Shown: positions 15,681 to 45,702 of the stretch, piece by piece
Layout: every line of letters begins with the position of its first letter
Position numbering within the stretch: position 1 is the first letter of the stretch
Assembly (NCBI GenBank): GCA_945865695.1
Contig: CAMBFX010000006.1
Span: 1-46,197, forward strand
Direction of reading: 5' to 3'
Length of the DNA: 46,197 nucleotides
Source of the DNA: Chryseobacterium gleum
Lineage (GTDB): Bacteria > Bacteroidota > Bacteroidia > Flavobacteriales_D > UBA2798
Position numbers and translations under genes: made by a program
Notes under the pieces: generated by a model
Told to the model about the DNA's origin: nothing
The model's input: only the letters and a program-made list of their open reading frames with translations
Database searches by the model: none

Positions 15681-15842
15681 GTTAATATTTCGCTTTGTAA
15701 AGATGCATCAAATTATTCGATCGAATTTGCCTGCAATCGACATTCTAACAGAATAATTCTAACAGATTAGCGTTGAAAACTTCAAGGTGGTGTATTCTAT
15801 GTCCTCATGGCATGGAGTAATTTTAACATTCAATATTTTATT

Positions 15843-19037: not shown

Positions 19038-19041
19038 GTTT

Positions 19042-21947: not shown

Positions 21948-22886
21948 TTAAGCAACTACATTCATTGCATCAAGAACATTCATTACATCTTTCACTGATT
22001 TAGCAGAAGCATCTAATAAAGCTTTTTCATCAGCATTCAATTGTAATTCGATGATTTTCTCAATACCATTTTTACCAAGAACCACAGGAACACCTAAGTA
22101 AATATCTTTATGGCCGTATTCTCCTTTTAACCATGCGCACACAGGGAAAATACGTTTTTGATCTTTAACAATAGCGGCTACCATTTGAGCAGCTGCAGCT
22201 CCTGGAGCATACCATGCTGAAGTTCCCAATAATTGAACGATTTCTCCTCCACCTACTTTGGCACGTTGGATGATTGCATCCAATTTGTCTTTCGAAATCA
22301 ATTCTGTCACCGGAATTCCTGCAACGGTTGTATATCTTGGTAGGGGAACCATTGTATCACCATGTCCACCCATTAACACTGCTTGAATATCTTTAGGAGA
22401 AATATTTAATTCTGTAGCTAAAAATGCTTTGTAACGAGCCGTATCTAAAATTCCAGCCATTCCCATTACTCTATTTGAATCAATTTTCGCTGTTAAATAA
22501 GAACAATAAGTCATTACATCTAACGGATTCGAAACAACAATCACAATTGTATTAGGTGAATGCTTAATAATATTTTCTGTAACTGATTTTACAATATTCG
22601 CATTAGTAGAAATTAAGTCATCACGACTCATACCTGGTTTTCTTGGAAGGCCAGATGTAATCACAACCACATCCGAATTAGCCGTTTTTGTATAATCATT
22701 GGTTGATCCAGTAATACGAGTATCGAATAAGTGAATAGGAGAAGTTTGCCAAGCGTCAAGTGATTTACCTTCTGCGAATCCTTCTTTGATGTCTAATAAT
22801 ACGATTTCGTTTACTACATCCATTTGTGCTAATACATCGGCACAAGTTGCACCAACGTTTCCTGCTCCAACTACAGTTACTTTCAT
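21948..22886 (-). CDS. mdh: Malate dehydrogenase, LDH-like (NAD-dependent)
   Basis: 312 residues, the usual length. It interconverts malate and oxaloacetate with NAD in the citric acid cycle. The dinucleotide site GAGNVG is at residues 7-12, and Asp32 at the end of the second strand favours NAD over NADP. The substrate-binding residues Arg82 and Arg88 (PRKPGMSR) are those that mark malate rather than lactate specificity, with Arg151 and the catalytic His175 in GGHGDTMVPL. It is divergent from the ECF sigma gene at 23107; the shared upstream gap of 220 bp holds that gene's promoter. No clear TAnnTTTG element was seen on the mdh side. Confidence 0.97.
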   Translation of the reverse strand: MKVTVVGAGNVGATCADVLAQMDVVNEIVLLDIKEGFAEGKSLDAWQTSPIHLFDTRITGSTNDYTKTANSDVVVITSGLPRKPGMSRDDLISTNANIVKSVTENIIKHSPNTIVIVVSNPLDVMTYCSYLTAKIDSNRVMGMAGILDTARYKAFLATELNISPKDIQAVLMGGHGDTMVPLPRYTTVAGIPVTELISKDKLDAIIQRAKVGGGEIVQLLGTSAWYAPGAAAAQMVAAIVKDQKRIFPVCAWLKGEYGHKDIYLGVPVVLGKNGIEKIIELQLNADEKALLDASAKSVKDVMNVLDAMNVVA

Positions 22887-23062: not shown

Positions 23063-23088
23063 GGCAACCCTGTTAAAAGGTCTGCGTC
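23063..23088 (+). promoter_or_regulatory. ECF-like promoter in front of the sigma operon
   Basis: GGCAACC (23063-23069) and CGTC (23085-23088) are separated by 15 nt and end 18 nt before the ATG at 23107. An AAC-containing -35 and CGTC-type -10 are the usual pattern of ECF promoters. The same pair occurs at 35989-36013 before the second giant operon (14-nt spacer). Autoregulation by the sigma factor is inferred. Confidence 0.6.
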
Positions 23089-23106: not shown

Positions 23107-23700
23107 ATGAAACTGTCGGAAAATGAATTAAATCAACTTGTAAAAGGCTGTATTGCAGGAAACCGAAAGGACCAGCAGCAACTTTTCAAGTGCTTTTTCG
23201 GCAAGATGATTGTAGTTTGTATGCGTTATACTAAAGATCGTGATACAGCTCAAGACATCTTGCAAGAGGGGTTCATCAAAGCATTTGAAAAAATGGTTGA
23301 CTTCACTTTCACTGGTTCTTTCGAAGGTTGGTTAAGACGAATTATGGTAAACACTGCCATTGATCATTTCAGAAAGTCGAAACATATTGTTGAATTATTT
23401 GATAATAAACAATACGATTCAGAAGACGAAGATGGTGACCATAGCGATTTTGAAGACAAAAAATCAGACACGGATGAAACGTGGGGGAATTTAAGTCCAG
23501 AAAAAGTGCTAGCAGCCATGCAGGGACTTTCACCTGCCTATCGCACCGTTTTTAACTTATATGTAATGGAGAATTATTCTCATAAAGACATTGCAGAAAT
23601 GTTAAATATAAATATCGGAACGAGTAAAAGTAATTTGTCCAAGGCAAGAGCGAACTTGAAAAAGATTTTAGAGAAAAATATGTTTATAAACGCTAAATAG
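23107..23700 (+). CDS. ECF-type RNA polymerase sigma factor heading the giant-adhesin operon
   Basis: 197 residues. Region 2 (about 24-91: FFGKMIVVCMRYTKDRDTAQDILQEGF ... FEGWLRRIMVNTAIDHFR) and region 4 (about 131-190: LSPAYRTVFNLYVMENYSHKDIAEMLNI ... SNLSKARANLKKIL) are complete; regions 1 and 3 are absent. A strongly acidic linker (102-124) separates the two, longer than usual. The stop is 4 nt before the start of the membrane protein with an anti-sigma-like layout, which is followed closely by a small secreted protein and a giant T9SS substrate, so it probably controls this operon and, by shared promoter motif, the second giant operon. The ATG at 23107 is the only one consistent with the frame. 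Confidence 0.93.
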   Translation: MKLSENELNQLVKGCIAGNRKDQQQLFKCFFGKMIVVCMRYTKDRDTAQDILQEGFIKAFEKMVDFTFTGSFEGWLRRIMVNTAIDHFRKSKHIVELFDNKQYDSEDEDGDHSDFEDKKSDTDETWGNLSPEKVLAAMQGLSPAYRTVFNLYVMENYSHKDIAEMLNINIGTSKSNLSKARANLKKILEKNMFINAK

Positions 23701-23704
23701 ATTA

Positions 23705-25123
23705 ATGAGTAAATTGAATAATATAGATGATGCAATCAGAAACTCCTTCGAAAATTTCGAGGTTCCTTTCGATGCTTCTTTATGGAACAATATTGATAGT
23801 AAATTGGATAACGTGCATTCTAATGATTTGACCTCATTCGACAAAAAAATTCAAGAAACAGTTTCTGGTCATGAAGCCATTTATAATCCTGCTGCATGGA
23901 CTGCAGTAGAATCTCAATTAGCTTCTTCTTATTCATATACCAAATGGTTTTTAGCCGCTGGTTTTATTTGTTTAATTTCATTAGGGATTTATTTCTTATC
24001 AAATAATGAAAATGAAAAATCAATAATCACAGAAAACTCAACTAAAGTTAAAATGGTTGAAAATAAAACTGCTGGGGATTTAGAAAAGAAAACCTCAATT
24101 GATAATGAAAAATTAAATAATAATTCTAATTCTTCTATTGATACGGATAATAATTCAAATGAATTTTTAGAAAATCCAATAACTAATAATAAAGAGATTG
24201 AAAATTCAGAAACTAAAAAAGTAAAGACAGAAAATTCAAGTAATTCAAATTCAAACAATAATTCGATTAATCAAAATAATCCAATTATTACAAATCATAT
24301 TCCCGACTTAAAAATTTCAGAAAAAAAATGGTCAATATCTTATCCAATTATTTCTGGAAAAACAGAGATGTGCGAAGGTTCAGAAGTTAAATTAGTATCC
24401 TCTTCAGTATCTGAAAAAGTAAGTATTCAATGGATGTTGAATGGTGTGTTAGTTAGCAATAATGAAGAGATTACACTTAAGAATTTAACTTTGGGAACTC
24501 ATGAAATTGAATTAATTCATACCTCTAAAACAGAATACAAAAACCAATGTTTAGATCCAGAATTAAAGAAGTCTGTAGAAATTATTGTAAAGGAAAATTC
24601 TTCAGTGGATTTTAAATTCGAACAAGTAGGTGACGCATTTTATCCAGAAACGAAATTCCAAGTTTTATCTCCCGAAAAGAATATCAAATATACTTGGTCA
24701 ATAGATAATTTTACTTTCCAAGGAAACGAAACTACTCACCTATTTAACAATAAAGGAAACTACCCAGTTCAATTATTGGCAGAAAATGAAAATGGTTGTA
24801 GTTCAACAGAAATTAAAAATGTAGAAATTAGTACAGATTACAATTTACTTGCACCTAATTCATTTAGCCCTAACTTTGATGGAATAAATGATGCTTTTAT
24901 TCCTGAAGCATTAAAGTATTTGAATCTTCCTTTCAAGATGATTATTTACAGTCGTCAAAACAATATAGTTTTCCAAACAAATAGGGTTGATTTACATTGG
25001 GATGGACGAAATATGAACAATGGTGAAACATGTGGTCAAGGAGCTTATCTTTGGATAGTAGAACTCACGAATAAACAGGGCGAGATGGAGAAATACAGTG
25101 GAACAATTACATTATTGAAATAA
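23705..25123 (+). CDS. Single-span membrane protein, candidate anti-sigma factor, with T9SS type B C-terminal domain
   Basis: 472 residues with no cleavable signal peptide. The first 80 are cytoplasmic-like and contain two related segments: FENFEVPFDASLWNNIDSKL (15-34) and a weaker copy around EAIYNPAAWTAVESQL (57-72); this E-x-P-x-LW-x-x-I motif occurs at the start of many sigma-linked Bacteroidota membrane proteins. One transmembrane helix (81-98) follows, then an Asn/Ser/Glu-rich disordered linker (~105-200), an Ig/PKD-like region (~215-375) and a type B/gliding-motility C-terminal domain (378-472: APNSFSPNFDGINDAF ... SGTITLLK). Gene order (4 nt after a sigma factor) suggests an anti-sigma role. 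A sorting domain on a protein that is anchored in the inner membrane is unusual. Confidence 0.85.
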   Translation: MSKLNNIDDAIRNSFENFEVPFDASLWNNIDSKLDNVHSNDLTSFDKKIQETVSGHEAIYNPAAWTAVESQLASSYSYTKWFLAAGFICLISLGIYFLSNNENEKSIITENSTKVKMVENKTAGDLEKKTSIDNEKLNNNSNSSIDTDNNSNEFLENPITNNKEIENSETKKVKTENSSNSNSNNNSINQNNPIITNHIPDLKISEKKWSISYPIISGKTEMCEGSEVKLVSSSVSEKVSIQWMLNGVLVSNNEEITLKNLTLGTHEIELIHTSKTEYKNQCLDPELKKSVEIIVKENSSVDFKFEQVGDAFYPETKFQVLSPEKNIKYTWSIDNFTFQGNETTHLFNNKGNYPVQLLAENENGCSSTEIKNVEISTDYNLLAPNSFSPNFDGINDAFIPEALKYLNLPFKMIIYSRQNNIVFQTNRVDLHWDGRNMNNGETCGQGAYLWIVELTNKQGEMEKYSGTITLLK

Positions 25124-25145
25124 AATAACGAAATACGATACACGA

Positions 25146-25532
25146 ATGACAAATATAAAGAAGCTAATTATGATGGGAATCCTTACGATTCCCTTTCTGC
25201 TTTTAACCGAAATGACTATAGCGCAGAATTATTCCAAAATGCCAATTGAAGTTCAAGCTAAAATTGATCAAAATAAATATGATGGACTCCCCATCTATTC
25301 AGGAGTCATTTTTAATTATGAAGTTGCTGTAACTGGTTTAGACCAAAGTGAACGTCAAATTTTACTTGATCGAGCTGAAAAAATGAATGAAATTATTTCA
25401 GTTACATTCGATGCTATTGGAAATGTTAACGTAAAATGCAAAAGTGGAACTGAATTCGTTACTGTTAAACCTATTTTCCAAATCATTGTTTCAGGTATTA
25501 CTAGTATTAAAGACACTTATTCTCTAAAATAA
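25146..25532 (+). CDS. Small secreted protein upstream of the first giant, unknown function
   Basis: 128 residues with a signal peptide ending near residue 27 (LLLTEMTIAQ). The mature ~100 residues suggest a beta-alpha-beta-beta arrangement (IFNYEVAVTG, SERQILLDRAEKMNEI, SVTFDAIGNVNVKCK), possibly a ferredoxin-like fold, though no family is recognised. There is no sorting domain or lipobox, so it probably stays in the periplasm. It is 22 nt downstream of the membrane protein and 12 nt upstream of the giant adhesin. A similar-sized secreted protein sits just before the second giant, which suggests a helper for the giant, for example as a periplasmic chaperone. That is inference. Confidence 0.8.
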   Translation: MTNIKKLIMMGILTIPFLLLTEMTIAQNYSKMPIEVQAKIDQNKYDGLPIYSGVIFNYEVAVTGLDQSERQILLDRAEKMNEIISVTFDAIGNVNVKCKSGTEFVTVKPIFQIIVSGITSIKDTYSLK

Positions 25533-25544
25533 CCAATCATAAAA

Positions 25545-28500
25545 ATGAAAAAATTTTATTTTCTTTTAATGTTTTTATGGACTGGCTTTACTTCTTATAG
25601 CCAATGTACAAATACGTCTTCTTTTGGATCAGCAACTGCTCCTGCTTCAATTGGGGCATCAGCTACGATAAGCACATGTAGTTTTCAAACGGAATATAGC
25701 ACTGTTAGTGGATTAGTAGCAGGCAATACTTATAGCATAGCTATGAGTAGTGGAGGTTGTGTTACTGTTCATAGCGGAACGCCAAATGGACCCGTAGTAG
25801 CTTTCGGAACGGCTCCACTTTCATTTACACCTACTGCAGGAGGAACCTATTATTTTCATTGGAATGTAAATTGTGGTCCATGTGCAACTAATACAGCTTG
25901 TATAACAACTTCAATCACGATGACGGCAGGAACTGGCCCACCACCCCCACTTCCTTGTAGTGGTGGAGCAAATTCTTCTTGTGCAACAGCTGATCCATTT
26001 TGTACAGCTACGGTTTATAATTATTGTAATACCACTGGTACTCCATCTTTGGGACAATACGCTTGTTTGTTTACAACCCCCAATCCAGTTTGGTATTATT
26101 TGAATATTGCAACCTCTGGACCAATAGATATTTTTATGTCTCAAACGGCAACAGGAACAGGATTACCGATTGACGTAGATTTTATTTTATACGGCCCTTT
26201 CACAAGTACTGCAGCAGCTTGTGCAGCCATTGCTCCAAGTACAACAATTCCTGCTACCTACCCAAGTGGAAATATTGTTGATTGTTCTTACTCTGGGTCA
26301 GCAACTGAAACAGCAAATATTCCAAACGCAATTGCAGGACAATGGTACATGTTATTAATGACTAATTTCTCTAACCAATCAGGCCAGATTGATTTTTCAC
26401 AAACAGGTGGATCTGGCGTCAGCAATTGTGCCATTTTAACCTGTTCAAGTAATGCTGTTGCAACACAACCTGCTTGTTCTGGTGGAAATGGCTCTATTTT
26501 AGTTACCGCAGTTAGTGGAACAGCTAACTATAATGTTAGTTGGACTGGAACCTCTTCTGGAAATCCAGGTGGAAGTGAAATGATAGCTACAGGAGGAACA
26601 TATAATATTACAGGTTTGGCTGCTGGAAATTATAACGTAACTGTTACTGATAATACTGGTTGTACATCTACGAACTCAGTAACCATTACAAATCCAACAG
26701 TTGTCACAGCAACACAAGCTCACTCCAATTTATTATGCGCAGGAACAACAACTACAGCCACCATTACAGGGTCAGGCGGAACAGCGCCCTATAATGTTAG
26801 TTGGACAGGTACAACTTCAGGAAATCCTGCAGGAACAGAAATTGCTGCTTCAGGTGGAACTTATAATATGACGGGTTTAGGAGTTGGAGCATACAATGTA
26901 ACTGTAACTTCTGCCAATGGATGTACTGCTACTGTAACAGTAATAGTAACTGGTCCTGCCACGCTAACAGCTTCGGATGTTGAAACCAACGTTGCTTGCT
27001 CTGGAGCAACAACAGGAAACGGAGCAATTACTGCCACAGGTGGAACTGCATTATACAATGTAAGTTGGACAGGTACAACTTCAGGAAATCCTGCAGGAAC
27101 AGAAATTGCTGCCTCAGGGGGCACTTATAATATGGCTGGTCTTGGTGCTGGAGTTTATAATGTAACGGTTACAGATGCGAACGGATGTACAGCGACTACA
27201 ACTGTAAATATTGCAGCAGGTGTAGTATTGAATGCAAATATTACTCCTACCGCAGCACAATGCTTAACAGGAAACTCATTTAGTTTTTCAGGATCGACTT
27301 CAACTATTTCTAGTGGAGCAATTACATCTTATACATGGAATTTTGGTGCAGGGGCAACTCCTGCTACTGGAACAGGAGTAAATCCTCCTGTAGTAACATA
27401 TAGTGGAGCAGGAACGATGACAGTTACATTAACAGTTTCTAATGGACCTTGTACAAATGTTGAAACTTTAAATATTACTGTTAATGCAAATCCAAACGTA
27501 GCTACTGTGCCCGTAAATCCACTATGTAATGGTGGTTTAACAGGAAGTATTGCTGTTACTGGATCTGGCGGAACAGCTCCATACAATGTAAGTTGGACTG
27601 GAACCACAACTGGAAATCCTGCAGGAAATGAAATCGCTGCCTCTGGCGGAACTTATAATATGACAGGATTAGGAGCTGGTTCATATACTATCACTGTAAC
27701 AAGTGGAAATGGATGTACTGCTGTAACAACAGTTAATTTAACAAACCCAACTTTACTTACCGCTTCAGATGTTGAAACGAACGTTGCTTGTAATGGTGGA
27801 ACAACGGGTAATGGTGCAATCACTGCTACAGGCGGAACAGCTCCATATAATGTAAGCTGGACAGGCATTACCACTGGAAATCCAGCAGGAAATGAAATAG
27901 CTGCTTCTGGTGGAACTTTTAATATGACTGCTCTTGGTGCGGGAACATATAATGTTACTGTAACAGATGCAGCAGGATGTACTGCGACAACAACTGTAAA
28001 TATTACACAACCAACATTAACAACCGCTTCCAATTCTGTAACAAATGTTTTATGCTTTGGTGCTACAACTGGTTCTGCAGTAATTACTGCTACAGGAGGA
28101 ACAGCAGGTTACAATGTAAGTTGGACAGGTACTGCTTCAGGAAATCCTGCAGGAACAGAAATTGCTGCCTCAGGCGGAACTTTCAATATGACAGGATTAG
28201 GCGCTGGAACGTATAATGTTACAGTAACAAATGCTAACGGATGTACAGCTACAACAACAGTAACAATTACTCAACCAACAGCAGCTTTAACAGCTTCTAA
28301 TACTTTTATTTCTCCTCTTTGTAATGGAGGAACCAATGGTTCAGTTACTGTTACTGCAACCAATGGAACAGCTCCCTATAGTATAAGTTGGACTGGAACC
28401 ACCACTGGTAATCCAGCAGGAACAGAAATCGCTTCTTCTGCAGGTACATTTACAATGACGACTTTAGGTGCAGGAACTTATACTATTACTGTAACGGATG

Positions 28501-31500
28501 CCAATGGATGTACAGCTACAACAACAGCAACGGTAACACAACCAACTTTAACTACTGCAACGGATGTTGAAACGAATGTTGCTTGTAATGGAGGCTTAAC
28601 TGGATCAGGATTAATTACTGCAACAGGTGGAACTGCTCCTTACAACGTTAGCTGGACAGGAACAACTGCAGGAAATCCCGCAGGAACAGAAATCGCTGCT
28701 TCTGGCGGAACTTTTAATATAACAGGATTAGGTCTTGGAGTTTACAACGTAACCTTTACCGACGCAAATGGATGTACAGCAACCACTACAGTAAATATCA
28801 CACAACCCGCTGCTATTACTTTAACGCCTTCTTCTACAAATACAAATTGCGGTTCTAGTACAGGAACGGCAAGTGTTGTGGCAGCAGGTGGTGCAGGTGG
28901 ATTTACCTATGTTTGGTCTCCAGCTCCTGGAGGTGGACAAGGTACTGCTAGTGCCAATGGTTTAGCTGCTGGAAGTTATACAGTAACAGTTACTGACGCC
29001 AGCGGTTGTGCTGCTGTTTCAAATATTGTTGTAAATGCAAATTCAGCTCCAACTGGTTCTTTAGCTTCACAAGTAAATGTATCATGTAATGGAGGAACAA
29101 ATGGTTCTGCAATTGTAAGTGCTACAGGAGGAACGCCAGGATATAATGTTAGTTGGACTGGTCCAACTTCTGGAAATCCAGCAGGAACAGAAATTGCGGC
29201 TTCTGGAGGTAATTACAATGTTACACCAATGTCTGCTGGTATTTATACGGTAACATTAACTGATGCTGGTGGATGTTTCGCAACAGTAAATGTTACAATT
29301 ACTCAACCAACTTCTATTTCAGTTTCTAATACTGTTGTAAATGCTACTTGTAATGCAAGCTTAACTGGTTCTTCCATTATTACTGCTTCAGGCGGAACGG
29401 CTCCTTATAATGTTAGTTGGACAGGAACAACTACAGGAAACCCTGCAGGAACAGAAATTGCTGCTTCAGGAGGAACTTTCAATCTGACATCTTTGGGCGT
29501 AGGAACCTATAACATTACTGTTACTGATGCAAACAGCTGTACAGGAACTACTACTGTGACTATAACACAACCAACAGCAGTTACTGCTTCAAATACGGTT
29601 AGCCCCGTTTTATGTAATGGTGGCTCTACAGGTTCTTCTGTAATTACAGGTTCAGGTGGCACAACTCCTTATAATGTTAGTTGGACAGGAACAACTTCAG
29701 GTAATCCAGCAGGTATAGAAATTGCTGCATCAGGAGGAACTTTTAATATGACGTCTTTAGCTGTCGGAACTTATAACGTTACAGTAACGGATGCAAATGG
29801 ATGTACAGGAACTACAACGGTAACTATTTCTCAACCTGCCACAATTACACTTACCCCATCTTCTACTAACGCAAACTGTGGAGCTTCCAATGGAACTGCT
29901 TCTGTTGTTGCTTCCGGTGGCGCTGGTGGATTTACATACTTATGGGCACCCGCCCCAGGAGCTGGACAAGGAACTGCTAATGCAACAGGATTAGTTGCGG
30001 GTAGTTATAATGTTTTAGTAACGGATGTGAATGGTTGTACAAATAATACAAATATTATTGTTGGTTCAAATTCAGCTCCAACAGCCTCTGAAGTTTCACA
30101 TGTAAATATTCTTTGCAATGGAGGAGCTACAGGATCAATTTTGGTAACTTCTACTGGAGGCGCTCCAGGTTATAATATTAGTTGGACAGGTGCTTCTTCT
30201 GGAAATCCTGCAGGAACAGAAATTGCTGCTTCAGGAGGTAACTATAATATTACAGGATTAATCGCTGGAGCTTATACAGTGACAGCTTCTGATGTCAATG
30301 CATGTACTTCCTCTTTTAATGTTACCATTACACAACCTACTGCCTTATCTGCTTCAAATGTGGCCAATAATGTTTTATGTAATGGAGGGAATAATGGATC
30401 AGCGATCATTACTGCTACTGGTGGTAATGCTCCTTACAATGTGAGTTGGACAGGAACAACCACTGGTAACCCAGCAGGAACTGAAATCGCTGCTTCTGGA
30501 GGAACTTTCGCAATGCCTGCTTTGACAGTAGGAACTTATAATATTACTTTAACTGATGCTAATGGTTGTACTACTACAACTACTGCTGTTATTTCACAAC
30601 CAACTGCAATTTCAATTACGAGTTCCACTTCAATTAACGCTCTTTGTTTTGGGAACTGTAATGGTTCTGTGAATGCAACTTCAACTGGTGGAACTGGAAC
30701 TTTAGTATTTAATTGGGTATCGGTTGGAACAGGTGCAAATCAAACTGGATTATGCGCAGGATCATATACATTAATTGTGACGGATGCCAATAACTGTTCT
30801 GCTACACAAACAATTCTAGTAGGGCAACCATCAGCAGTTTCTGGAACCACTTCTGTAGTCAATGCAAATTGCGGGTCTGCTAATGGATCAGCAACGGTTG
30901 TTCCTTCGGGTGGAATGGGTGGTTATACATTTAGCTGGGGAACTACCCCTGTTCAAACAGGAGCTACAGCAACAGGACTAATACCTGGTGTTTATAATAT
31001 TACTGTGACTGATGCGAATCTTTGTACATTCAACACTACTGCAACTGTAGGAAACAATACTTCAGGATCAGTAAATGCTGTAACCACTAGCAATATTTCT
31101 TGCTTTGGTGCAGCAAATGGTGTAATGACTGCCACAATGGTTGGTGGGTCGCCCACTTTTACGTATAGCTGGAATACTGTTCCAGTTCAAACCACCGCTG
31201 TTGCTACAGGTGTTGGACCGGGTAGTTATACAGTAACAGTAACTGATATCAATGGATGTATCGTAACTGGAACAACAACCTTAACAGAACCGCCATTATT
31301 AACGGTTTCAACTATTGCTACGGATGTTAGTTGCCCAGGAGGAAATGATGGAATTGTTTCATCAACCATTGCAGGTGGAACTTTAGCATATGGAATTAGT
31401 TGGTCAAATGGACCAATCACAGGAAATATTAATGGATTGACAGCGAATACTTATACGATTACTGTAACAGATGGAAACGGATGTATTGCTACTTCTTCTT

Positions 31501-34500
31501 CTGTTGTCGCTCAACCCAATGCTTTTGCACTTACATTCACTACTACTGATGTTAGTTGTAAAAATAATTGCACAGGTAGTGCAACAGCTAACTTGACAGG
31601 AGGAACAAGCCCTTATAATTATCAATGGAATGATGCATTAAATCAGACTACGGTAGGTGCTGGATTTTTGTGTGCGGGAACATACAATTTAATTATTACG
31701 GATGATAATGGTTGTATCACCAATGGAACAACCACAATCCTTGAACCGACTTTATTAGTTTTAAATACAACATCTGTTAATTCGAATTGTGGACAAGCGG
31801 ATGGTTCTGCTTGTGTTATTGCTTCTGGTGGTGTTGCACCTTATTCATATTTATGGAATACTGGTCAAACTACTTCTTGTTTAACAAATGTACTTGCAGG
31901 AACATATGTTGTGGATGTAACAGATGCAAATGGATGTACAGAAACAGTTTCAATAACAGTACTTGATTTGAATGGTCCTTCAGCTGCAATAATTGCACAA
32001 ACCAATGTTTCTTGTTTCGGTCTTGCCGATGGAACAGCAACGGTTGATATGTTAGGAGGAAGTGGATTCTTCACTGTACAATGGGATCCTACTGCTGGAA
32101 GTCAATCTACACCTACTGCTTCTAATTTACCGGCAGGAACCTATGGTGTAACAATTACAGATGCTCTTGGATGTAATGCATCTACTTCTGTAATTATTAC
32201 CGAGCCAAATGATATCGTTTATATCCAATCTTTCAATCAACCAAGCTGTTTTAATTATTGTGATGGAGGAGCAAGCTTAGCTACTGTAGGTGGAACCACA
32301 CCTTATAGCTTTAGTTGGTTAGATGCATTAAATAATCCAATTGGAACTAATAGCAGTTCTATTACTGGATTATGTAATGGAACATATGGTTTAACTTTAG
32401 TTGATGCCAATGGTTGTGCAGAAAACATGAATTATACTCTAATTAATCCGGCTCAAATTACAGGAACAATTTCTTCTACTAATGTAATTTGTAATGGAGC
32501 TTGTGATGGAACCGCTACTATTGTTCCAATTAATGGAGTACCTCCTTTCTCATTCTCTTGGAATGATCCAGCTACCCAAACAACTTCGGTTGCAAATGGA
32601 TTATGTCCTGGAGCTTTTAATGTTACTTTATCAGATGACAATGGTTGTTTTGAAATTTTTAATACAACTATTTCTGAACCTACATTACTTACAAGTTCTA
32701 TTACTGTTTTTGGAGATGTTTCTTGCTCTGGTTCTTGTGATGGATTTGCACAAATAGATTTTGTAGGTGGCGTTGCTCCTTATCAAATTCTATGGAGTAA
32801 TGGATCAAGCAATCAAGTGGCAACCAATCTTTGTACAGGTTCTTATGATGTAACAGTAACAGATGCGAATGGTTGTACTTCATTAAGTACAATTGTTTTA
32901 ACCACTCCAAATCCTCTAGTATTAGTTGAAAGCCAAGTAAACTTATTATGTAATGATGTTTGTATTGGCGAAGCTAGTGTAGTTGCAAGTGGAGGAACTA
33001 CTCCTTACAATTACCAATGGAACAATCCAACATTTGATACGAATCCAGAAATTTTAAATCAATGTGCTGGAACCTATACTGTATTAGTTACAGATGATAA
33101 TGGCTGTACAGCGTCATCAATAGTTACAATTACAGAACCGGTTGCTCTTGATTTTACATATGTTTCACAAAATTCAAATTGTAATCAAGCAAATGGCCAA
33201 ATTTGCACCAATCAAATTGGAGGCGTTGCACCATTCTTTTATCAATGGGATGATCCCTTCCTTCAAACTTCCGCTTGTGCATTTAATATTACAGCCGGTT
33301 GTTATAATCTAACTTTAACAGATGGGAATGGTTGCGTGAAAGATTCTTTGATTTGTATCAATGATATCGCTGGCCCAACAATTAATCTAGTAAGTTTTAC
33401 TGATGTAACTTGTCAAGGAGCGAACGACGGTACTATAGCAGTTGCAGTGAGTGGCGGAGTAGGTGCTTTGACAATCGAATGGTATGATGGAGCAAATACA
33501 CTCATACCCACATTTACGAATTTGACTTCAGTTAATAATTTGAATGGAGATACATATGGCGTTGCTGTGAGCGATACTGCAGGGTGTTTAGTTTCATTGA
33601 CTCAATTTATTTTTGAACCAAATTCAGTTTTTGCTGCAGTCACTGCAACTACCCAACCTTTATGTTTTGGTGGTTGTGATGGAACAGCCACTGTTTCTGC
33701 TAGTGGTGGAGATGGAAATTACACTTACCTATGGAACGCAGGATCAGCCTCTACAGTTGCTAATAATTCTGGTCTTTGTGCTGGCCCTGTTTCAGTAACA
33801 GTTTCTGATGGAAATGGTTGTTCATTTACAACTAGTGCAACTATTACTCAGCCAACTTTAATAACAGCAAATACAACTTCAGCTACTAATGTAACTTGTT
33901 TTGGTTTCTGTAACGGTTCGGTGATAGTTTCGGCTAATGGTGCAACGCCACCATACACCTATAATTGGACATTAGGCGCGAGTACAGGCCCAACAGCAAC
34001 TAATCTTTGTCCTAATACTTATACAACCATTATTACTGATGCAAATGGATGTTTCACTGCTTTGATTAATAACATTAGTGAGCCTGGTCAACTAGTAGTA
34101 GCAACAACAACGGTTAATTCAACCTGTTCTCAATGCAATGGTGAAGCTACCGCTATTGTAAGTGGGGGAACAACTCCATTTAATTATCAATGGTCTTCAG
34201 GAGCCAGTTTAACAACGCCTACAAATTCTGGTTTATGTCCAGGAGCACATACAATAAACATCACTGATGGAAATGGTTGTACCATTTCTGGAAGTACAAC
34301 GGTTATTGATGAGGCAGGACCAACCATTACCGGAATGACTTTTACTCCACCTTTATGTTCAGGATTGAGTAATGGAACTGCAACGGTAAACACTAATGGT
34401 GGAATTGGACAAATTATTTATGATTGGAATGACCCTGCATCACAAAATACACAAACTGCTTTTGGGTTAATTTCAGGAAATTATTGTGTAAGTATTCAAG

Positions 34501-35888
34501 ATCAAAATGGTTGTCCCGCTGCACAATGTATCAACGTAACTCAACCAAGTCAATTAAATGCTATTGGTGATTTGGATGCAACTATTTGCTTTGGTGATTC
34601 AACACAAGTATGGGCTAGTGGACAAGGAGGAACCGCTCCTTATACAATAAATTGGAGTACTGTAGGTATGGTCGGAACAGGGCCAACAATGGTTTATCCT
34701 GCTGTATCAACAAATTATTGCTTCAATGTTACAGATGTAAATGGATGTGCATCTCCAAATGAATGTGTTGTAATTACGGTTACACCGCCATTAACAATGA
34801 CGTTAACACCTCCATCTGAAATTTGTGATCTAGGATCTATTTCAGTTGTTGCTAACGCATCAGGAGGAAATAGCGGGCCTTATACGTTCACATGGACAGA
34901 TGATAACGGAAATCCAATTACTTCAACACAAACAGGAAACTCATCTACGATTGTTGTGAGCCCTACCGTGGCAACTTGGTATTATGTAACATTAACAGAT
35001 GGCTGTACAACACCAATAACTGATTCAACATTAATTTCTGTTAATGCATTGCCAGTATTATTTGTGAATGTGGTTGACGCAAATGGTTGCGAGCCTTTCA
35101 CTGCTCAATTTATTGTGAACTCAAATATTGGAGTCACTTATGATTACGATTTCCAATGTGATGGAACAATTGATTTAGCAAATACGGCTAATACCAACCC
35201 AACTTCAACCTATCCTTTAGCTGGATTATATGATGTTTGTGTAACGGTTACCTCTGCAGATGGTTGTTCAACGACATCAAATAATATTGGTATGGTTACT
35301 GTTTTTCCTGTACCTGTTGCTGATTTCACATTTACGCCAACAACTACTACCATTTTAAATCCAATTATTGATTTTACCAATACAACAGCAGGTGGCTCTA
35401 CTTATAGTTGGGATTTTGGTGATGGAAATATTTTACCGGCTGGAAGTGGAAATATTGCCAATGGAACGCATAGTGGAACTACAAGTGGTACATACATGAA
35501 TCCAACTCATATTTATGGTGATACTGGAACATATACAATTACATTAACAGCCACTAATCAATTCGGATGTACCGATGTTATTTCTTACGATATCATTATC
35601 GAAGGTGAATATGTAATTTATGTTCCGAATTCATTCACACCAGATGGAGATGGTATAAATGATTATTTCTTATCTCAAGGAATAGGAATTGATCGAGATA
35701 ATTACAAAATGATGATTTTCAATAGATGGGGTGAGTTGATTTTTGAGACAGAAAATCCTGATTTAGGTTGGGATGGTATGTATCGAGGAGTAATGTCTCA
35801 AACCGATGTTTATGTTTGGAAAATCCGAACCCTAGATCACAAAACATTACCACACGAATATATTGGCAACGTAACATTATTGAAGTAA
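25545..35888 (+). CDS. Giant SprB-repeat surface protein 1 with T9SS type B tail
   Basis: 3,447 residues. Signal peptide 1-20 (MKKFYFLLMFLWTGFTSYSQ). Residues ~21-300 hold two N-terminal modules, the second (DPFCTATVYNYC ... VWYYLNIATSGPIDIFM ... IVDCSYSGSATE) being a cysteine-rich module seen at the start of other Bacteroidota gliding-type proteins. Then come 13 long SprB-like repeats of 88 residues marked YNVSWTG, one PKD-like unit and two 79-residue variants, and next ~1,760 residues of shorter SprB-type repeats (GGxxPYxYxW ... TDxNGC). Two cysteines per repeat could form a disulphide. Residues ~3,225-3,350 are a PKD domain (YSWDFGDGN), and the last 95 the type B sorting domain. In Flavobacterium, SprB repeats belong to the mobile gliding adhesin; role here is inferred. 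Confidence 0.93.
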   Translation: MKKFYFLLMFLWTGFTSYSQCTNTSSFGSATAPASIGASATISTCSFQTEYSTVSGLVAGNTYSIAMSSGGCVTVHSGTPNGPVVAFGTAPLSFTPTAGGTYYFHWNVNCGPCATNTACITTSITMTAGTGPPPPLPCSGGANSSCATADPFCTATVYNYCNTTGTPSLGQYACLFTTPNPVWYYLNIATSGPIDIFMSQTATGTGLPIDVDFILYGPFTSTAAACAAIAPSTTIPATYPSGNIVDCSYSGSATETANIPNAIAGQWYMLLMTNFSNQSGQIDFSQTGGSGVSNCAILTCSSNAVATQPACSGGNGSILVTAVSGTANYNVSWTGTSSGNPGGSEMIATGGTYNITGLAAGNYNVTVTDNTGCTSTNSVTITNPTVVTATQAHSNLLCAGTTTTATITGSGGTAPYNVSWTGTTSGNPAGTEIAASGGTYNMTGLGVGAYNVTVTSANGCTATVTVIVTGPATLTASDVETNVACSGATTGNGAITATGGTALYNVSWTGTTSGNPAGTEIAASGGTYNMAGLGAGVYNVTVTDANGCTATTTVNIAAGVVLNANITPTAAQCLTGNSFSFSGSTSTISSGAITSYTWNFGAGATPATGTGVNPPVVTYSGAGTMTVTLTVSNGPCTNVETLNITVNANPNVATVPVNPLCNGGLTGSIAVTGSGGTAPYNVSWTGTTTGNPAGNEIAASGGTYNMTGLGAGSYTITVTSGNGCTAVTTVNLTNPTLLTASDVETNVACNGGTTGNGAITATGGTAPYNVSWTGITTGNPAGNEIAASGGTFNMTALGAGTYNVTVTDAAGCTATTTVNITQPTLTTASNSVTNVLCFGATTGSAVITATGGTAGYNVSWTGTASGNPAGTEIAASGGTFNMTGLGAGTYNVTVTNANGCTATTTVTITQPTAALTASNTFISPLCNGGTNGSVTVTATNGTAPYSISWTGTTTGNPAGTEIASSAGTFTMTTLGAGTYTITVTDANGCTATTTATVTQPTLTTATDVETNVACNGGLTGSGLITATGGTAPYNVSWTGTTAGNPAGTEIAASGGTFNITGLGLGVYNVTFTDANGCTATTTVNITQPAAITLTPSSTNTNCGSSTGTASVVAAGGAGGFTYVWSPAPGGGQGTASANGLAAGSYTVTVTDASGCAAVSNIVVNANSAPTGSLASQVNVSCNGGTNGSAIVSATGGTPGYNVSWTGPTSGNPAGTEIAASGGNYNVTPMSAGIYTVTLTDAGGCFATVNVTITQPTSISVSNTVVNATCNASLTGSSIITASGGTAPYNVSWTGTTTGNPAGTEIAASGGTFNLTSLGVGTYNITVTDANSCTGTTTVTITQPTAVTASNTVSPVLCNGGSTGSSVITGSGGTTPYNVSWTGTTSGNPAGIEIAASGGTFNMTSLAVGTYNVTVTDANGCTGTTTVTISQPATITLTPSSTNANCGASNGTASVVASGGAGGFTYLWAPAPGAGQGTANATGLVAGSYNVLVTDVNGCTNNTNIIVGSNSAPTASEVSHVNILCNGGATGSILVTSTGGAPGYNISWTGASSGNPAGTEIAASGGNYNITGLIAGAYTVTASDVNACTSSFNVTITQPTALSASNVANNVLCNGGNNGSAIITATGGNAPYNVSWTGTTTGNPAGTEIAASGGTFAMPALTVGTYNITLTDANGCTTTTTAVISQPTAISITSSTSINALCFGNCNGSVNATSTGGTGTLVFNWVSVGTGANQTGLCAGSYTLIVTDANNCSATQTILVGQPSAVSGTTSVVNANCGSANGSATVVPSGGMGGYTFSWGTTPVQTGATATGLIPGVYNITVTDANLCTFNTTATVGNNTSGSVNAVTTSNISCFGAANGVMTATMVGGSPTFTYSWNTVPVQTTAVATGVGPGSYTVTVTDINGCIVTGTTTLTEPPLLTVSTIATDVSCPGGNDGIVSSTIAGGTLAYGISWSNGPITGNINGLTANTYTITVTDGNGCIATSSSVVAQPNAFALTFTTTDVSCKNNCTGSATANLTGGTSPYNYQWNDALNQTTVGAGFLCAGTYNLIITDDNGCITNGTTTILEPTLLVLNTTSVNSNCGQADGSACVIASGGVAPYSYLWNTGQTTSCLTNVLAGTYVVDVTDANGCTETVSITVLDLNGPSAAIIAQTNVSCFGLADGTATVDMLGGSGFFTVQWDPTAGSQSTPTASNLPAGTYGVTITDALGCNASTSVIITEPNDIVYIQSFNQPSCFNYCDGGASLATVGGTTPYSFSWLDALNNPIGTNSSSITGLCNGTYGLTLVDANGCAENMNYTLINPAQITGTISSTNVICNGACDGTATIVPINGVPPFSFSWNDPATQTTSVANGLCPGAFNVTLSDDNGCFEIFNTTISEPTLLTSSITVFGDVSCSGSCDGFAQIDFVGGVAPYQILWSNGSSNQVATNLCTGSYDVTVTDANGCTSLSTIVLTTPNPLVLVESQVNLLCNDVCIGEASVVASGGTTPYNYQWNNPTFDTNPEILNQCAGTYTVLVTDDNGCTASSIVTITEPVALDFTYVSQNSNCNQANGQICTNQIGGVAPFFYQWDDPFLQTSACAFNITAGCYNLTLTDGNGCVKDSLICINDIAGPTINLVSFTDVTCQGANDGTIAVAVSGGVGALTIEWYDGANTLIPTFTNLTSVNNLNGDTYGVAVSDTAGCLVSLTQFIFEPNSVFAAVTATTQPLCFGGCDGTATVSASGGDGNYTYLWNAGSASTVANNSGLCAGPVSVTVSDGNGCSFTTSATITQPTLITANTTSATNVTCFGFCNGSVIVSANGATPPYTYNWTLGASTGPTATNLCPNTYTTIITDANGCFTALINNISEPGQLVVATTTVNSTCSQCNGEATAIVSGGTTPFNYQWSSGASLTTPTNSGLCPGAHTINITDGNGCTISGSTTVIDEAGPTITGMTFTPPLCSGLSNGTATVNTNGGIGQIIYDWNDPASQNTQTAFGLISGNYCVSIQDQNGCPAAQCINVTQPSQLNAIGDLDATICFGDSTQVWASGQGGTAPYTINWSTVGMVGTGPTMVYPAVSTNYCFNVTDVNGCASPNECVVITVTPPLTMTLTPPSEICDLGSISVVANASGGNSGPYTFTWTDDNGNPITSTQTGNSSTIVVSPTVATWYYVTLTDGCTTPITDSTLISVNALPVLFVNVVDANGCEPFTAQFIVNSNIGVTYDYDFQCDGTIDLANTANTNPTSTYPLAGLYDVCVTVTSADGCSTTSNNIGMVTVFPVPVADFTFTPTTTTILNPIIDFTNTTAGGSTYSWDFGDGNILPAGSGNIANGTHSGTTSGTYMNPTHIYGDTGTYTITLTATNQFGCTDVISYDIIIEGEYVIYVPNSFTPDGDGINDYFLSQGIGIDRDNYKMMIFNRWGELIFETENPDLGWDGMYRGVMSQTDVYVWKIRTLDHKTLPHEYIGNVTLLK
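26529..30698 (+). repeat. Array of 264-bp long SprB-like units in giant 1
   Basis: Position of the YNVSWTG tyrosine codon: 26529, 26790, 27054, 27582, 27846, 28110, 28377, 28641, 29142, 29406, 29670, 30171, 30435. Intervals are 261, 264, 528, 264, 264, 267, 264, 501, 264, 264, 501 and 264 bp. The 528-bp step holds a PKD-like unit; each 501-bp step holds a 237-bp variant unit starting TLTPSSTN. Some units share long nearly identical DNA stretches. Confidence 0.92.
28641..30698 (+). repeat. Higher-order tandem repeat of 1,029 bp in giant 1
   Basis: Three marker codons at 28641, 29142 and 29406 are followed by three at 29670, 30171 and 30435: offsets are 0, 501 and 765 bp in both sets, and the two sets start exactly 1,029 bp apart. 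Both blocks contain one 79-residue TLTPSSTN unit in the same place. A block duplication inside the gene is the simplest reading. Confidence 0.8.
35282..35888 (+). repeat. 3' end of giant 1, duplicated at 44577-45183
   Basis: Aligned with the second giant at a constant offset of 9,295 with no gaps. From 35282 to about 35630 only a handful of mismatches are seen by eye (for example 35400 A/G); divergence rises in the sorting-domain part after that. Upstream the two genes are clearly more different. Confidence 0.9.
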
Positions 35889-35911
35889 AATACTTTCCAC
35901 TTGATTTTGTG

Positions 35912-35941
35912 AAAGAGAATCGGGTAACCGTTTCTCTTTTT
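35912..35941 (+). terminator. Intrinsic terminator after giant 1
   Basis: AAAGAGAA (35912-35919) and CGG pair with CCG and TTCTCTTT (35932-35939) across a T-T mismatch and a GTAA loop, followed by a T run. It closes the sigma operon 23 nt past the stop. Confidence 0.85.
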
Positions 35942-35969
35942 AAATGATAATGTTGCGAATAAGTTCCGT

Positions 35970-35977
35970 TATATTTG
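35970..35977 (+). promoter_or_regulatory. Candidate -7 element (TATATTTG) before the second giant operon
   Basis: TATATTTG matches TAnnTTTG and lies between the giant 1 terminator and the small secreted gene at 36093. No well-placed TTTG partner is seen, so the ECF-like promoter just downstream is the stronger candidate. Confidence 0.3.
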
Positions 35978-35988
35978 TAACATTCCTA

Positions 35989-36013
35989 GGCAACCATAAA
36001 AAAAATTATCGTC
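35989..36013 (+). promoter_or_regulatory. ECF-like promoter in front of the second giant operon
   Basis: GGCAACC (35989-35995) and CGTC (36010-36013) with a 14-nt spacer repeat the pair seen at 23063-23088 before the sigma gene. The start codon of the first gene is 79 nt downstream. If bound by the sigma factor encoded at 23107, it makes the second giant part of the same regulon. Confidence 0.55.
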
Positions 36014-36092
36014 AATTTAGTGCGAAAATTTTCGTTTTAGTACGTTAATTATATGAAATCAATTGATTATCAAAAACAATGAAATTCATTTT

Positions 36093-36509
36093 ATGAAAAA
36101 TAAATTATTTAATCCGGCTGTTTTAAGCCTGCTTTTTCTTTTTAGCCTAGGCTTTTTCTCTGCCTCTGCTCAAAATCAATCCTTGATCGAGAAAGAAAAG
36201 GAAACCTATAAAATCACTAATCCTGAGTTAACAACCGATTTAGGTTCTTACACTAGAGCACTTGATAAAGCAAATCTTAGCCTTTATCGACTTCAATCTA
36301 AATCCTTCACTATTAAATTTGAAGGTGGCGTAATCGTAGAAGTCTTTTCGGCAGAATCTTTATTATCCAAAAACATCATAATCGATCAATCTTACGAATA
36401 CCCCCAAGATTTTTCTTTAGAACGATATGAATCTGTTTTCAGTCTAGCTGAGAATGATATAATTGTTGAAATACGCCCAGTTTCTAATGCTAAAAAAACA
36501 TCCAGATAA
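36093..36509 (+). CDS. Small secreted protein upstream of the second giant, unknown function
   Basis: 138 residues from ATG at 36093, the start that gives a proper signal peptide (MKNKLFNPAVLSLLFLFSLGFFSASAQ); an in-frame TTG at 36063 adds a non-signal tail. The mature part is ~110 residues, with a helical beginning (LIEKEKETYK), then strands such as SFTIKFEGGVIVEVFSA and a final DIIVEIRPVSNA. No known family, lipobox or sorting domain is seen. It ends one base before the ATG of the second giant, so the pair is translated as one unit. Position matches the small secreted gene before giant 1, although the sequences do not align obviously. Confidence 0.8.
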   Translation: MKNKLFNPAVLSLLFLFSLGFFSASAQNQSLIEKEKETYKITNPELTTDLGSYTRALDKANLSLYRLQSKSFTIKFEGGVIVEVFSAESLLSKNIIIDQSYEYPQDFSLERYESVFSLAENDIIVEIRPVSNAKKTSR

Positions 36510-36510
36510 A

Positions 36511-39500
36511 ATGAGAAAGTCAATATTCAAATTAACCATTGCACTCGGCCTCTTTTGTTGTGGAGGTTTTAATGTTGTATTCGCGCAACCGGCAAATAAC
36601 GTTCCCTGCAGTGCAACCAACATGGGTACGCTACCTACACCTGGTGCCTGTACCTCGGGATTACAGAATGGTGCTGCTACCACTTTAAATAGTCAAACTA
36701 CGGTTGGTGCTACTGGTGCAACTCCTTATGTTTATCAAACGGGATGTAGTGGTGGTGGCCAACAATCTGCTCCTGCTTTAGATACCTGGTATACTTTTAC
36801 AGCCTCAGGTACAATAGTTAATATTGCGCTTGCTAATTTTCCCAATGCAAGTGTTGCTATTTGGACAGGTAGTTGTAACAATTTAACTGCTTGGGGTTGT
36901 ATGAATGTACCCAATGGTGGCTCAGCTTCTTTTACAGTTCTTCAAACAGTTGTTGGCCAACAATATTGGGTTCAAGTAAGTGGAGGTACTGCCTCTGCAA
37001 CCGATGCGAGCTTTAGTTTATCTCTTGATAATGATATTGACTGTAATGACTGTTTAACTGCTGGAGCTATGACTGCATCTCCTGCTCCTGTAAATGGTGG
37101 TTATACTGCTGGACAAACGGTTACCTTTTGTTATACTATTACTGGATATACTCAGGTTAATACAAACTGGCTTCATGGTATTCAAATAACTTTTGGTGCT
37201 GGTTGGTCGGGTGGAATTCAAAATCCTGTTCCGGCAAATACTTTGCAGAATATTCCTGGCCCAGGTTCTAACGGTGATTGGTTATATTATCCAACAGGTA
37301 TTGGAAATGTAAATGGAACAAGCTGGGGACCAGGTTTCTATTTTGACACTCCTGATGGTGGAACTTCGGCTTCAGATAATTTTGGTGATGATTGTGGTGG
37401 AACTACTTGTTCTTGGACATTTTGCTGGGACATGACCGTTGGTACTTGTACGCCCGGCACAAGCTTAAATGTTACTGTTAATACGAGTGGTGATGGTGAA
37501 TCAGGATCTTGGCTTAGTAACGGATGTAATGATGATAATGCTACCAATTTTTCTGCAATAGAAATTTGTTGTACACCTCCCATTATGTCGCAGGTAAATG
37601 TCTTGTGTAATGGTGCTGCAACAGGTACCGCCACCGCTACTGGCCAAGGCTCAAGCCCTTGGGATTATGTTTGGGTAAATGGCGCAGGAACTACAATACA
37701 AACAATTACTAATGTGGCTGGCGCAAATACCGTAACGGGCCTTGCTGCAGGTACTTATACTGTAACTGTTACTGATAATGCGAATTGTGTTTCTTCCGCA
37801 ACAGTTACAATAACTCAACCTACATTAACCACCGCTACAGAGGCTCATGTAAACCCATTATGCTTTGGAGGAACAACTACGGCTACCATTACTGCTACTG
37901 GAGGAACTCCTGGCTATAATGTAAGCTGGACAGGAACCACCTCAGGTAATCCTGGAGGTACAGAAATTGCTGCCTCTGGTGGAACCTACAATATGACCGG
38001 ACTTGGAGCAGGAACTTATAATGTTACTGTAACTAATGCCAATGGTTGTATCGCTACCACTACCGTAATCGTTACTGTACCAACTGCTGTCGTTGCATCA
38101 AATGTCCCAACGGCAGTTACCTGCTCGGGTTTGTTGAACGGTTCAGCTGTGATTACCGCCTCTGGAGGCACACCTGGCTATAATGTTAGCTGGACAGGAA
38201 CCACAACAGGTAATCCTGCAGGTACAGAAATTGCCGCTTCGGGCGGAACTTTTAATATGACAGGTTTAGGTGCTGGAACTTATAATGTAACGGTAACTGA
38301 TGTTAATGGTTGCACAGCAACTACTACAGTTACTATAAATACAGGTGTTGTTATTGATGCTAATATTTCTCCTATTGCTGCACAGTGTTTAGTTGGAAAT
38401 AGTTTTTCTTTTTCTGGATCTACTTCAACTATTTCGAGCGGATCAATTACTTCATATAACTGGAATTTTGGGGCAGGTGCAACTCCTGCAACGGCTACCG
38501 GTGTAACCCCTGCTGCTGTAACCTATAGTGGTGCAGGAACAATTACAGTTACCTTAACTGTTTCTAATGGTACTTGTACCAATGTAGAAACTTTAAACAT
38601 CACTATCAATGCAAATCCAACTATAACAGCTCCACCGACTCCTCCTTTATGTTTTGGCGGTAGTACGGGCTCAATTTTAGTTACAGCGTCAAATGGAACT
38701 CCAGGATATAATGTAAGTTGGACTGGAACTTCATCAGGTAATCCTGCAGGAACAGAAATTTCTGCGTCAGGTGGAACTTTTAATATGACAGGTTTAACTA
38801 CAGGCTCATATACTATTACCGTTTCTACTTCGAATGGTTGTACTTCTACATTGGTGGTTCCTGTGTCTCAACCTACGGTAGTGACAGCTTCTGATTTAGA
38901 AACGAATGTAGTTTGTAATGGTGGTTTAACGGGTTCTGGATTAATAACCGGCTCGGGAGGAACAGCTCCATACAATGTAAGTTGGACAGGAACAAGCACT
39001 GGAAATCCAGCGGGAACAGAAATTGCTGCTTCCGGTGGAACATTTAATATGACTGGTTTAGGTATTGGAACCTATAATGTCACAGTTACCGATTCACAAG
39101 GATGTGCAGCAACGACTACCGTTAACATCACTCAAACTACAGCAATAACTTTAGTTCCATCATCTGTAAATGCAAATTGTGGTGTAAGTAATGGAACTGC
39201 AAGTGTCGTGGCATCTGGAGGAACAAATACTTTTTCATATGTATGGGCACCAGCTCCTGGAGGAGGACAAGGCACACCCAATGCTACAGGATTAGCTGCA
39301 GGAAGTTATACAGTTACGTTAACAGATGGAAATTTATGTACAGCAAACACCACTATCATCGTTGGATCTAATCTTGCTCCAATAGCAACATTGGTTTCGC
39401 AAGTAAATGTTTTATGTAATGGAGGATCTACAGGTTCTGCCATTGTATCTGCAACAGGAGGTTCACCTGGCTACAATATAAGTTGGACAGGTCCTACAAC

Positions 39501-45239: not shown

Positions 45240-45345
45240 AGTTTTAGATTTTTTAATCCATTACATACCATTGAAATAAATGATTATCTTTAAAAAGTTA
45301 AACGTCTAAAAACAACCATTTATGAATATTATCGTCCTAATTAAC

Positions 45346-45702
45346 ATGAAAAAGATCTTTTTTACTTTAGCTTTCCTTAGTTTGATAACGGGAAGCTTTG
45401 CCGCTAATATTGGAATTGGACCTGATAAGTTTGTTCAATTTTATGTTTCTTCACTTGAAAATCGTGAAAAAGCAACTGAACTAAATGAGTTTTTGAAATC
45501 CAAGGATGGTGTTAAAATAAGTAGAGTTGATTCTCATAGCAAGATTGTTTTTGTCATTTTTAATGCTGATAAAAATTATACAGAATCAGATTTTACAAAT
45601 TGGATGAATGAAAAAGGTTATACCTTTTCTTGTTTTAATGCAGGAATACAAGGTGTAGATAAGTTTATCCAGCTAAAATCAGAGGATTGCGCTAAAAAAT
45701 AA
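45346..45702 (+). CDS. Small secreted protein after giant 2, unknown function
   Basis: 118 residues from ATG at 45346, chosen because it opens a canonical signal peptide (MKKIFFTLAFLSLITGSFA); ATG at 45322 adds eight hydrophobic residues and is possible. The mature part looks like two beta-alpha-beta units: FVQFYVSSLENREKATELNEFL followed by VKISRVDSHSKIVFVIF, then ESDFTNWMNEKGYTFSCFNAG. This is a ferredoxin/HMA-like pattern without the CxxC metal site. It lies behind a strong terminator, so it has its own promoter, but none was recognised. Similar size and placement to the small secreted proteins before the giants; a link is only suggested. Confidence 0.78.
   Translation: MKKIFFTLAFLSLITGSFAANIGIGPDKFVQFYVSSLENREKATELNEFLKSKDGVKISRVDSHSKIVFVIFNADKNYTESDFTNWMNEKGYTFSCFNAGIQGVDKFIQLKSEDCAKK

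Follow-up and report, generated by a model that had tools for sequence, protein, structure and literature searches.

We describe a conserved gene pair of Bacteroidota in which an ECF sigma gene is followed directly by a gene for a single-span membrane protein whose tail resembles the type B C-terminal domain (CTD) of type IX secretion system (T9SS) cargo. Judged from their sequences, the two products are very probably a sigma factor and its anti-sigma factor. The conserved pair, its topology, the homology of the tail, a shared promoter motif and a predicted regulon all have support at this level. An anti-sigma factor with a cargo tail could match the synthesis of giant cargo to the export capacity of the T9SS, an explanation which, taken whole, we consider evenly poised; for its inferred step, the sensing of the T9SS by the tail, we would put the chances at even or slightly below.

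Results and discussion

The locus

The window (the whole stretch of DNA analysed, 46,197 nucleotides) had earlier been read from its letters alone, and this sequence-only reading described four co-directional genes running from a sigma gene to a giant gene. We reproduced these open reading frames, with gaps of 4, 22 and 12 nt (Table 1), and found just downstream a second operon that had been missed (36093-45183), in which a small secreted protein gene is followed by a SprB/CHU_C giant. The first gene was rightly called an ECF sigma factor: its product matched Pfam Sigma70_r2 (1.9e-13) and Sigma70_r4_2 (4.7e-15), scored over the cut-off of the sigma70-ECF model TIGR02937 and, in about 200 residues, contains sigma-70 regions 2 and 4 only, as ECF factors do. 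The giant, read as a SprB-repeat protein with a type B end, indeed has 30 SprB-repeat stretches (26 in the second giant; Pfam) and a CHU_C match at 9.7e-14; TIGR04131 gave 50.9 and 48.7 bits on the two giants.

Table 1. Features of the window around the sigma gene
Feature	Position	Strand	Description and basis
ECF sigma gene	23107..23700	+	197 aa; ORF list, Pfam and TIGRFAM-type models
Putative transmembrane anti-sigma gene, type B CTD-like tail	23705..25123	+	472 aa; ORF list, Pfam, AlphaFold
Cytoplasmic N-terminus, residues 1-77, putative sigma-binding domain	23705..23935	+	two helix-hairpin repeats, AlphaFold
Single transmembrane helix, residues 78-102	23936..24010	+	hydrophobicity, AlphaFold
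Disordered Asn/Ser-rich periplasmic linker, residues 103-213	24011..24343	+	AlphaFold, composition
Ig-like + PKD + CHU_C (type B CTD-like) ectodomain, residues 214-472	24344..25120	+	Pfam, AlphaFold, profile match to giant
Small secreted protein gene	25146..25532	+	128 aa; signal peptide by eye, no known family
Giant SprB-repeat gene with type B CTD	25545..35888	+	3,447 aa; Pfam, TIGR04131
Second small secreted protein gene	36093..36509	+	138 aa
Second giant SprB-repeat gene with type B CTD	36508..45183	+	about 2,890 aa
Malate dehydrogenase-like gene	21948..22886	-	divergent neighbour of sigma gene; context marker, outside the system
ECF-type promoter motif GCAACC-N15-CGTC	23064..23088	+	5' of sigma gene, predicted autoregulation
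Second promoter motif GCAACC-N14-CGTC	35990..36013	+	5' of second giant operon

A conserved unit of two genes

Near full-length members of the family of the 472-residue protein were found in at least 126 of the 159 genomes of the order to which the source genome belongs, and full or partial matches in at least 141 of them. The pair of an ECF sigma factor and a single-span protein with a type B CTD tail, for which the sequence-only reading had proposed a search, is thus kept outside the source genome. In each of the 64 loci checked, the family gene lies directly 3' of an ECF sigma gene; its start overlaps the sigma gene in 39 loci and is at most 30 nt away in 62, making the sigma gene and its single-span partner a conserved unit, probably translationally coupled. 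Where an ECF sigma gene is followed by one for a single-span protein, that protein is usually the anti-sigma factor.

With the N-terminal 101 residues as query, 14 of 40 genomes gave matches; those read out were frames of 419-498 residues after an ECF sigma gene, mostly with a divergent malate dehydrogenase gene, and one of the weakest, in L053, proved to have a barrel as its tail. A scan of named genomes with the sigma alignment gave 80 loci, most of them a sigma gene and then a protein of 400-470 residues with a transmembrane (TM) segment and a CTD-like end. Named sources of the family include Cryomorpha, Crocinitomix, Fluviicola, Lishizhenia and Brumimicrobium; the titles Chryseobacterium, Chitinophaga and Kuenenia of some MAGs are probably mislabelled and were left out of the taxonomy. 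A phylum-wide search with the full-length model was swamped by PKD and CHU_C matches and only full-length matches were used; among the matches listed, both full-length ones belong to the order. SprA was found in 157 of the 159 genomes. Mapped on the sigma tree, the adjacency of giant genes to the sigma operon shows at least 5-8 changes. Four loci of a sister sigma clade (L099, L109, L111 and L115) have, after the sigma gene, short single-TM proteins (226-248 aa), long-tailed and lacking any recognised beta domain; the promoter motif described below is present there.

Anatomy of the anti-sigma candidate

The 472-residue protein was modelled with AlphaFold from an alignment of 62 sequences. Its N-terminal part forms helices at residues 6-16, 25-34, 44-54 and 62-73. 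The one TM span read in it earlier was recovered as a hydrophobic peak at 81-99 and an AlphaFold helix at 78-102, and the linker that follows (103-213), described as rich in Asn and Ser, has 25 Asn and 16 Ser in 111 residues. Beyond it AlphaFold places an Ig-like domain (about 214-297), a PKD domain (about 300-375) and the CTD (about 380-472); the three beta domains are mostly confident, with pLDDT >90 in the last two. Pfam found PKD at 318-371 and the type IX signal domain CHU_C (PF13585) at 383-470 (2.8e-13; 50.2 bits, cut-off 27), and TIGR04131 fell marginally under its cut-off (34.4 against 35 bits). The ectodomain as a whole is homologous to the tail of the adjoining giant (family model 199-443 against C6:35088-35882, E=1.3e-41), and both proteins end, as had been noticed, in G-x-[IV]-TLLK. 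Foldseek against the PDB returned general Ig/PKD matches only, the best being the grappling-hook protein GhpA; according to PMC12618676, no structure of a type B CTD has been solved.

Across the family the mean charge is +1.9 before the TM segment and -0.7 after it, which fits an N-in, C-out topology. The hydrophobic segment begins at residue 30-83 (median 46) in all members, and with at least 29 residues ahead of it in every one, the cleaved Sec signal peptide that had been raised as an objection is ruled out. The N-terminal hairpin is duplicated in the family of the source genome (window 23705-23935) and also in L041 and L101, and occurs about five times in L089; such repeats could possibly serve sigma titration or avidity.

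Might the protein be no anti-sigma factor, and simply be anchored in the inner membrane and co-transcribed with sigma? Its N-terminus weakly matched the N-terminus of barrel-tailed anti-sigma-like proteins, with a profile probability of 91% (E 1.1e-6) over 35 columns, and the template of this match, four sequences, speaks for this alternative. It is most improbable, however, because adjacency with overlapping starts is kept in dozens of loci while the downstream neighbours vary, and because the protein has the place and topology of the dual membrane-spanning anti-sigma (Dma) factors of the Dma/Das pairs of Bacteroides thetaiotaomicron, whose action by way of their sigma factors has been demonstrated (PMC13088901).

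A shared promoter motif and the predicted regulon

The motif GCAACC-N14/15-CGTC occurs exactly twice in the window, against 0.04 expected, and none of 100 shuffles reached two. The site at 23064 ends 18 nt 5' of the sigma start. The motif was derived from these two window promoters and then tested in other loci: in the form GCAAC-N15/17-CGT[CT], and with a nearly constant spacing, it stands at one and the same place before the sigma gene in 58 of the 63 loci compared, against 0.11 expected, from which autoregulation is predicted.

Together with two other genomes of its family, the source genome holds 37 strict sites, 21 of them intergenic. Twelve of the 21 stand 5' of CHU_C or SprB operons, three of these being the sigma operon, whereas the reversed pattern, used as a control in the three genomes, gave 20 sites, four intergenic and none before CHU_C or SprB genes. 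With the sigma operons set aside, 9 of 18 intergenic sites precede CHU_C or SprB operons against 0 of 4 in the control, or 9 of 34 sites against 0 of 20 (p = 0.0099, orthologous sites being non-independent across the three genomes). Genome-wide, the motif count in the source genome was not above that of the reversed control (8 against 10), so the analysis relied solely on where the sites lie; taken by itself, the relaxed motif GCAACY..CGTY is too frequent to be interpreted.

In the source genome the motif stands 5' of genes for CHU_C proteins of 590 and 1,346 aa, the second with a 16-nt spacer; in G001 it precedes 2,103-aa and 146+2,190-aa operons, and in G002 genes of 1,109 and 2,072 aa. Cryomorpha ignava (L238) has it at the sigma operon and at giants, the latter as GCAACT. 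In Brumimicrobium and Lishizhenia, with no giant beside the sigma operon, it stands 5' of operons that pair a small secreted protein with a larger one, likewise secreted (L255, L258), the larger genes running off the locus end so that their C-termini lie outside the data. The coupling of the sigma unit to giant T9SS cargo that had been proposed for the window is thus borne out by a shared motif and by a predicted regulon made up largely of type B CTD and SprB giants; giant type B T9SS cargo is quite probably what the sigma factor regulates. The motif is also found 5' of another ECF sigma gene of 194-195 aa (L160, L225; source genome and G002), which suggests either a cascade of sigma factors or a promoter type that they share, and it may serve other ECF sigma factors too.

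Tail of the anti-sigma factor and CTDs of real cargo

We compared nine cargo CTDs of the source genome with 76 anti-sigma CTDs. R-[WYF]-G is present in 9/9 and 0/76, respectively; PNxDGxND is present in 9/9 cargo CTDs, a circular count since 7 of the 9 were chosen by the pattern PN-x-DG-x-ND, and in 24/76 anti-sigma CTDs (absent in 52). The pattern [FW]-[ILMF]-[PV]-x-x-[LI] is common to 65 of the 76, and only 37 of 62 family members reached CHU_C at E 0.01. Judged by these motifs, the anti-sigma CTDs are a distinct subfamily under its own constraint, and the complete lack of R-[WYF]-G makes the tail resemble a specialised mimic more than an export signal. The proposal that the tail mimics a T9SS substrate therefore stands as far as homology to the giant's tail goes, but not in the sense of a plain sorting signal, in view of both motif counts; a mimic or a receptor-binding module would fit better than 'substrate'. 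Retention of PNxDGxND went only weakly with the presence of an adjacent giant (Fisher p = 0.078), and we claim no link between the two.

Type B cargo (PMC12618676, PMC9143113) has the same tail fold, and the neighbouring giant has the same order, Ig/PKD and then CTD. Cargo differs in bearing a Sec signal peptide and R-[WYF]-G, whereas the anti-sigma factor has an uncleaved TM segment after 30-80 cytoplasmic residues and lacks that motif. Could the tail nevertheless be a working export signal, such that the ectodomain is drawn in by the translocon, cut from the membrane and exported, its loss freeing sigma in a FlgM-like manner? The window member retains SPNFDGIND, WDG and a GTITLLK end, as in real cargo, and its ectodomain of about 259 aa is comparable to the longest minimal type B signal, of up to 235 aa (PMC12618676); given that no member of the family has R-[WYF]-G, however, such a mode of action is quite improbable.

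In F. johnsoniae the type B CTD has five conserved motifs, each needed for secretion or carrier recognition (PMC12618676), and R-[WYF]-G and PNxDGxND may or may not be among them. As motifs are lost in the anti-sigma CTD and all five are needed in F. johnsoniae, it cannot be taken for granted that the tail docks on the usual receptor.

A related sigma gene in L089 is followed by a gene (5283-7124) for a 614-residue anti-sigma-like protein. Its N-terminus has some five repeats; a TM-like segment and a linker lead from them to an outer-membrane barrel of the PorP/SprF type (1.5e-21). The next gene encodes a lipoprotein with a CHU_C-like end. PorP/SprF proteins are dedicated carriers of type B cargo (PMC12618676, PMC9143113), and the two are expected to be produced in matching, stoichiometric quantities (PMC12618676). 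It seems, then, that one lineage bears the cargo tail and another, a single MAG locus, the carrier in the same position.

These observations also bear on a different sensor: an anti-sigma factor of the same regulon whose ectodomain would detect envelope damage, a ligand or misfolded protein, the cargo fold having been borrowed as a stable periplasmic beta module that no longer meets the T9SS. The family-wide loss of typical cargo motifs and the modest share of members recognised by CHU_C (37 of 62) argue for it. We regard it as rather unlikely, however, since the predicted regulated genes encode the very proteins whose tail is copied, the protein in L089 has for its tail a carrier that serves this class of cargo, and the CTD fold is kept at high confidence even in the most degenerate branch, where AlphaFold gave L110 the same domain plan with pLDDT 94-98 for the CTD helix and strands.

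A possible mechanism

If the tail instead senses the T9SS, the reading that we prefer, the sigma factor would drive its own operon and the operons of giant type B cargo (SprB-repeat and PKD proteins), the latter often with a small secreted protein gene in front. The anti-sigma factor would hold sigma, presumably by direct binding, via its cytoplasmic helical repeats, and its disordered tether, some 110 residues long, could extend as far as the outer membrane. The periplasmic part, in effect a copy of the C-terminal module of the cargo (Ig-PKD-CTD), would dock on the type B export apparatus, either a free PorP/SprF-type carrier or the SprA translocon. Occupancy or release of the docking site, in whichever direction the signal runs, would alter the hold on sigma, and giant cargo would thereby be made to match export capacity. 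A broader version, which we offer tentatively, is a trans-envelope anti-sigma family whose sensor acts as a decoy by imitating either the cargo (CTD tail) or the carrier (PorP/SprF tail, L089) and which couples giant-cargo expression to free export capacity.

Relation to known systems

The closest known kind is the Dma anti-sigma factors of Bacteroides. Common to both are an adjacent ECF sigma gene, a single TM helix and, beyond it, a long disordered tether that leads to a beta domain at the C-terminus. Dma proteins also have an N-terminal sigma-binding domain, for which residues 1-77 are the candidate here, and a sigma factor of group ECF21 is a further mark of the Dma family. The CTD-tailed anti-sigma factor, by analogy, probably works like Dma. 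Dma proteins, however, end in an outer-membrane beta-barrel, in contrast to the T9SS cargo tail (Ig, PKD, CHU_C) of the 472-residue protein, which we do not file as a Dma because it lacks that barrel. The regulons differ too: vesiculation and glycan use for Dma, giant T9SS cargo as predicted here. The L089 protein, with its PorP/SprF barrel, looks intermediate between the two. Our findings widen the concept of Dma beyond outer-membrane barrels to take in secreted cargo and its carriers, and suggest that anti-sigma factors of Bacteroidota can carry varied outer-membrane or cargo modules as sensors. The logic resembles that of flagella, where FlgM ties the activity of sigma-28 to the condition of a secretion machine, but FlgM is small and soluble and is exported whole.

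Porphyromonas gingivalis has a T9SS-linked ECF sigma factor, SigP, and a CTD-bearing protein, PorA, that affects its activity (PMC7712824, PMC4800418). SigP differs in being two-component-driven (PorXY) and in controlling genes of the T9SS machine, and PorA in being a cell-surface CTD protein rather than an anti-sigma factor anchored in the membrane. The SM6 promoters of Flavobacterium psychrophilum (PMC9723704) share a CGT box at -10, an ECF/anti-sigma pair and T9SS genes in the regulon, but the SM6 set includes T9SS components such as GldN and PorU and is not mainly giant cargo. A literature search for the T9SS together with anti-sigma factors (open-licence PMC papers, preprints aside) found no such protein described.

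The published regulation that we found concerns mainly the machine (PorXY-SigP), rather than how Bacteroidota match the synthesis of very large surface proteins to T9SS capacity. Cells may gauge their secretion machine before they start on their largest cargo, which, if true, would be a general cargo-mimic feedback for type IX secretion. The gene pair, the promoter motif and the predicted regulon are directly testable in Cryomorpha ignava and Lishizhenia tianjinensis.

Other features of the window and related loci

The small secreted proteins of the window (25146-25532, 36093-36509 and 45322-45702) matched no Pfam family. Homologues of the first stand 5' of giants in two related genomes, and small secreted proteins of about 120-155 aa, from several families, recur immediately 5' or 3' of giant type B CTD genes (besides the window, in L209, L213, L228, L229, L238, L241, L246, L255 and L258); possibly they are dedicated export helpers. 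Most type B cargo genes of F. johnsoniae have a porP/sprF-like gene behind them, but no evident one follows either window giant (25545-45183). A 330-aa gene in L214 resembled SprF by eye; Pfam gave no confirmation, and it was not counted. Four nearly identical tandem genes at 1430-2543 of the window encode RRM-like RNA-binding proteins of 84-85 aa. At 15807-20739, upstream of the malate dehydrogenase gene, lie genes for a large TPR protein and an outer-membrane-protein-like product, and similar pairs are found near the sigma locus in L092 and L117.
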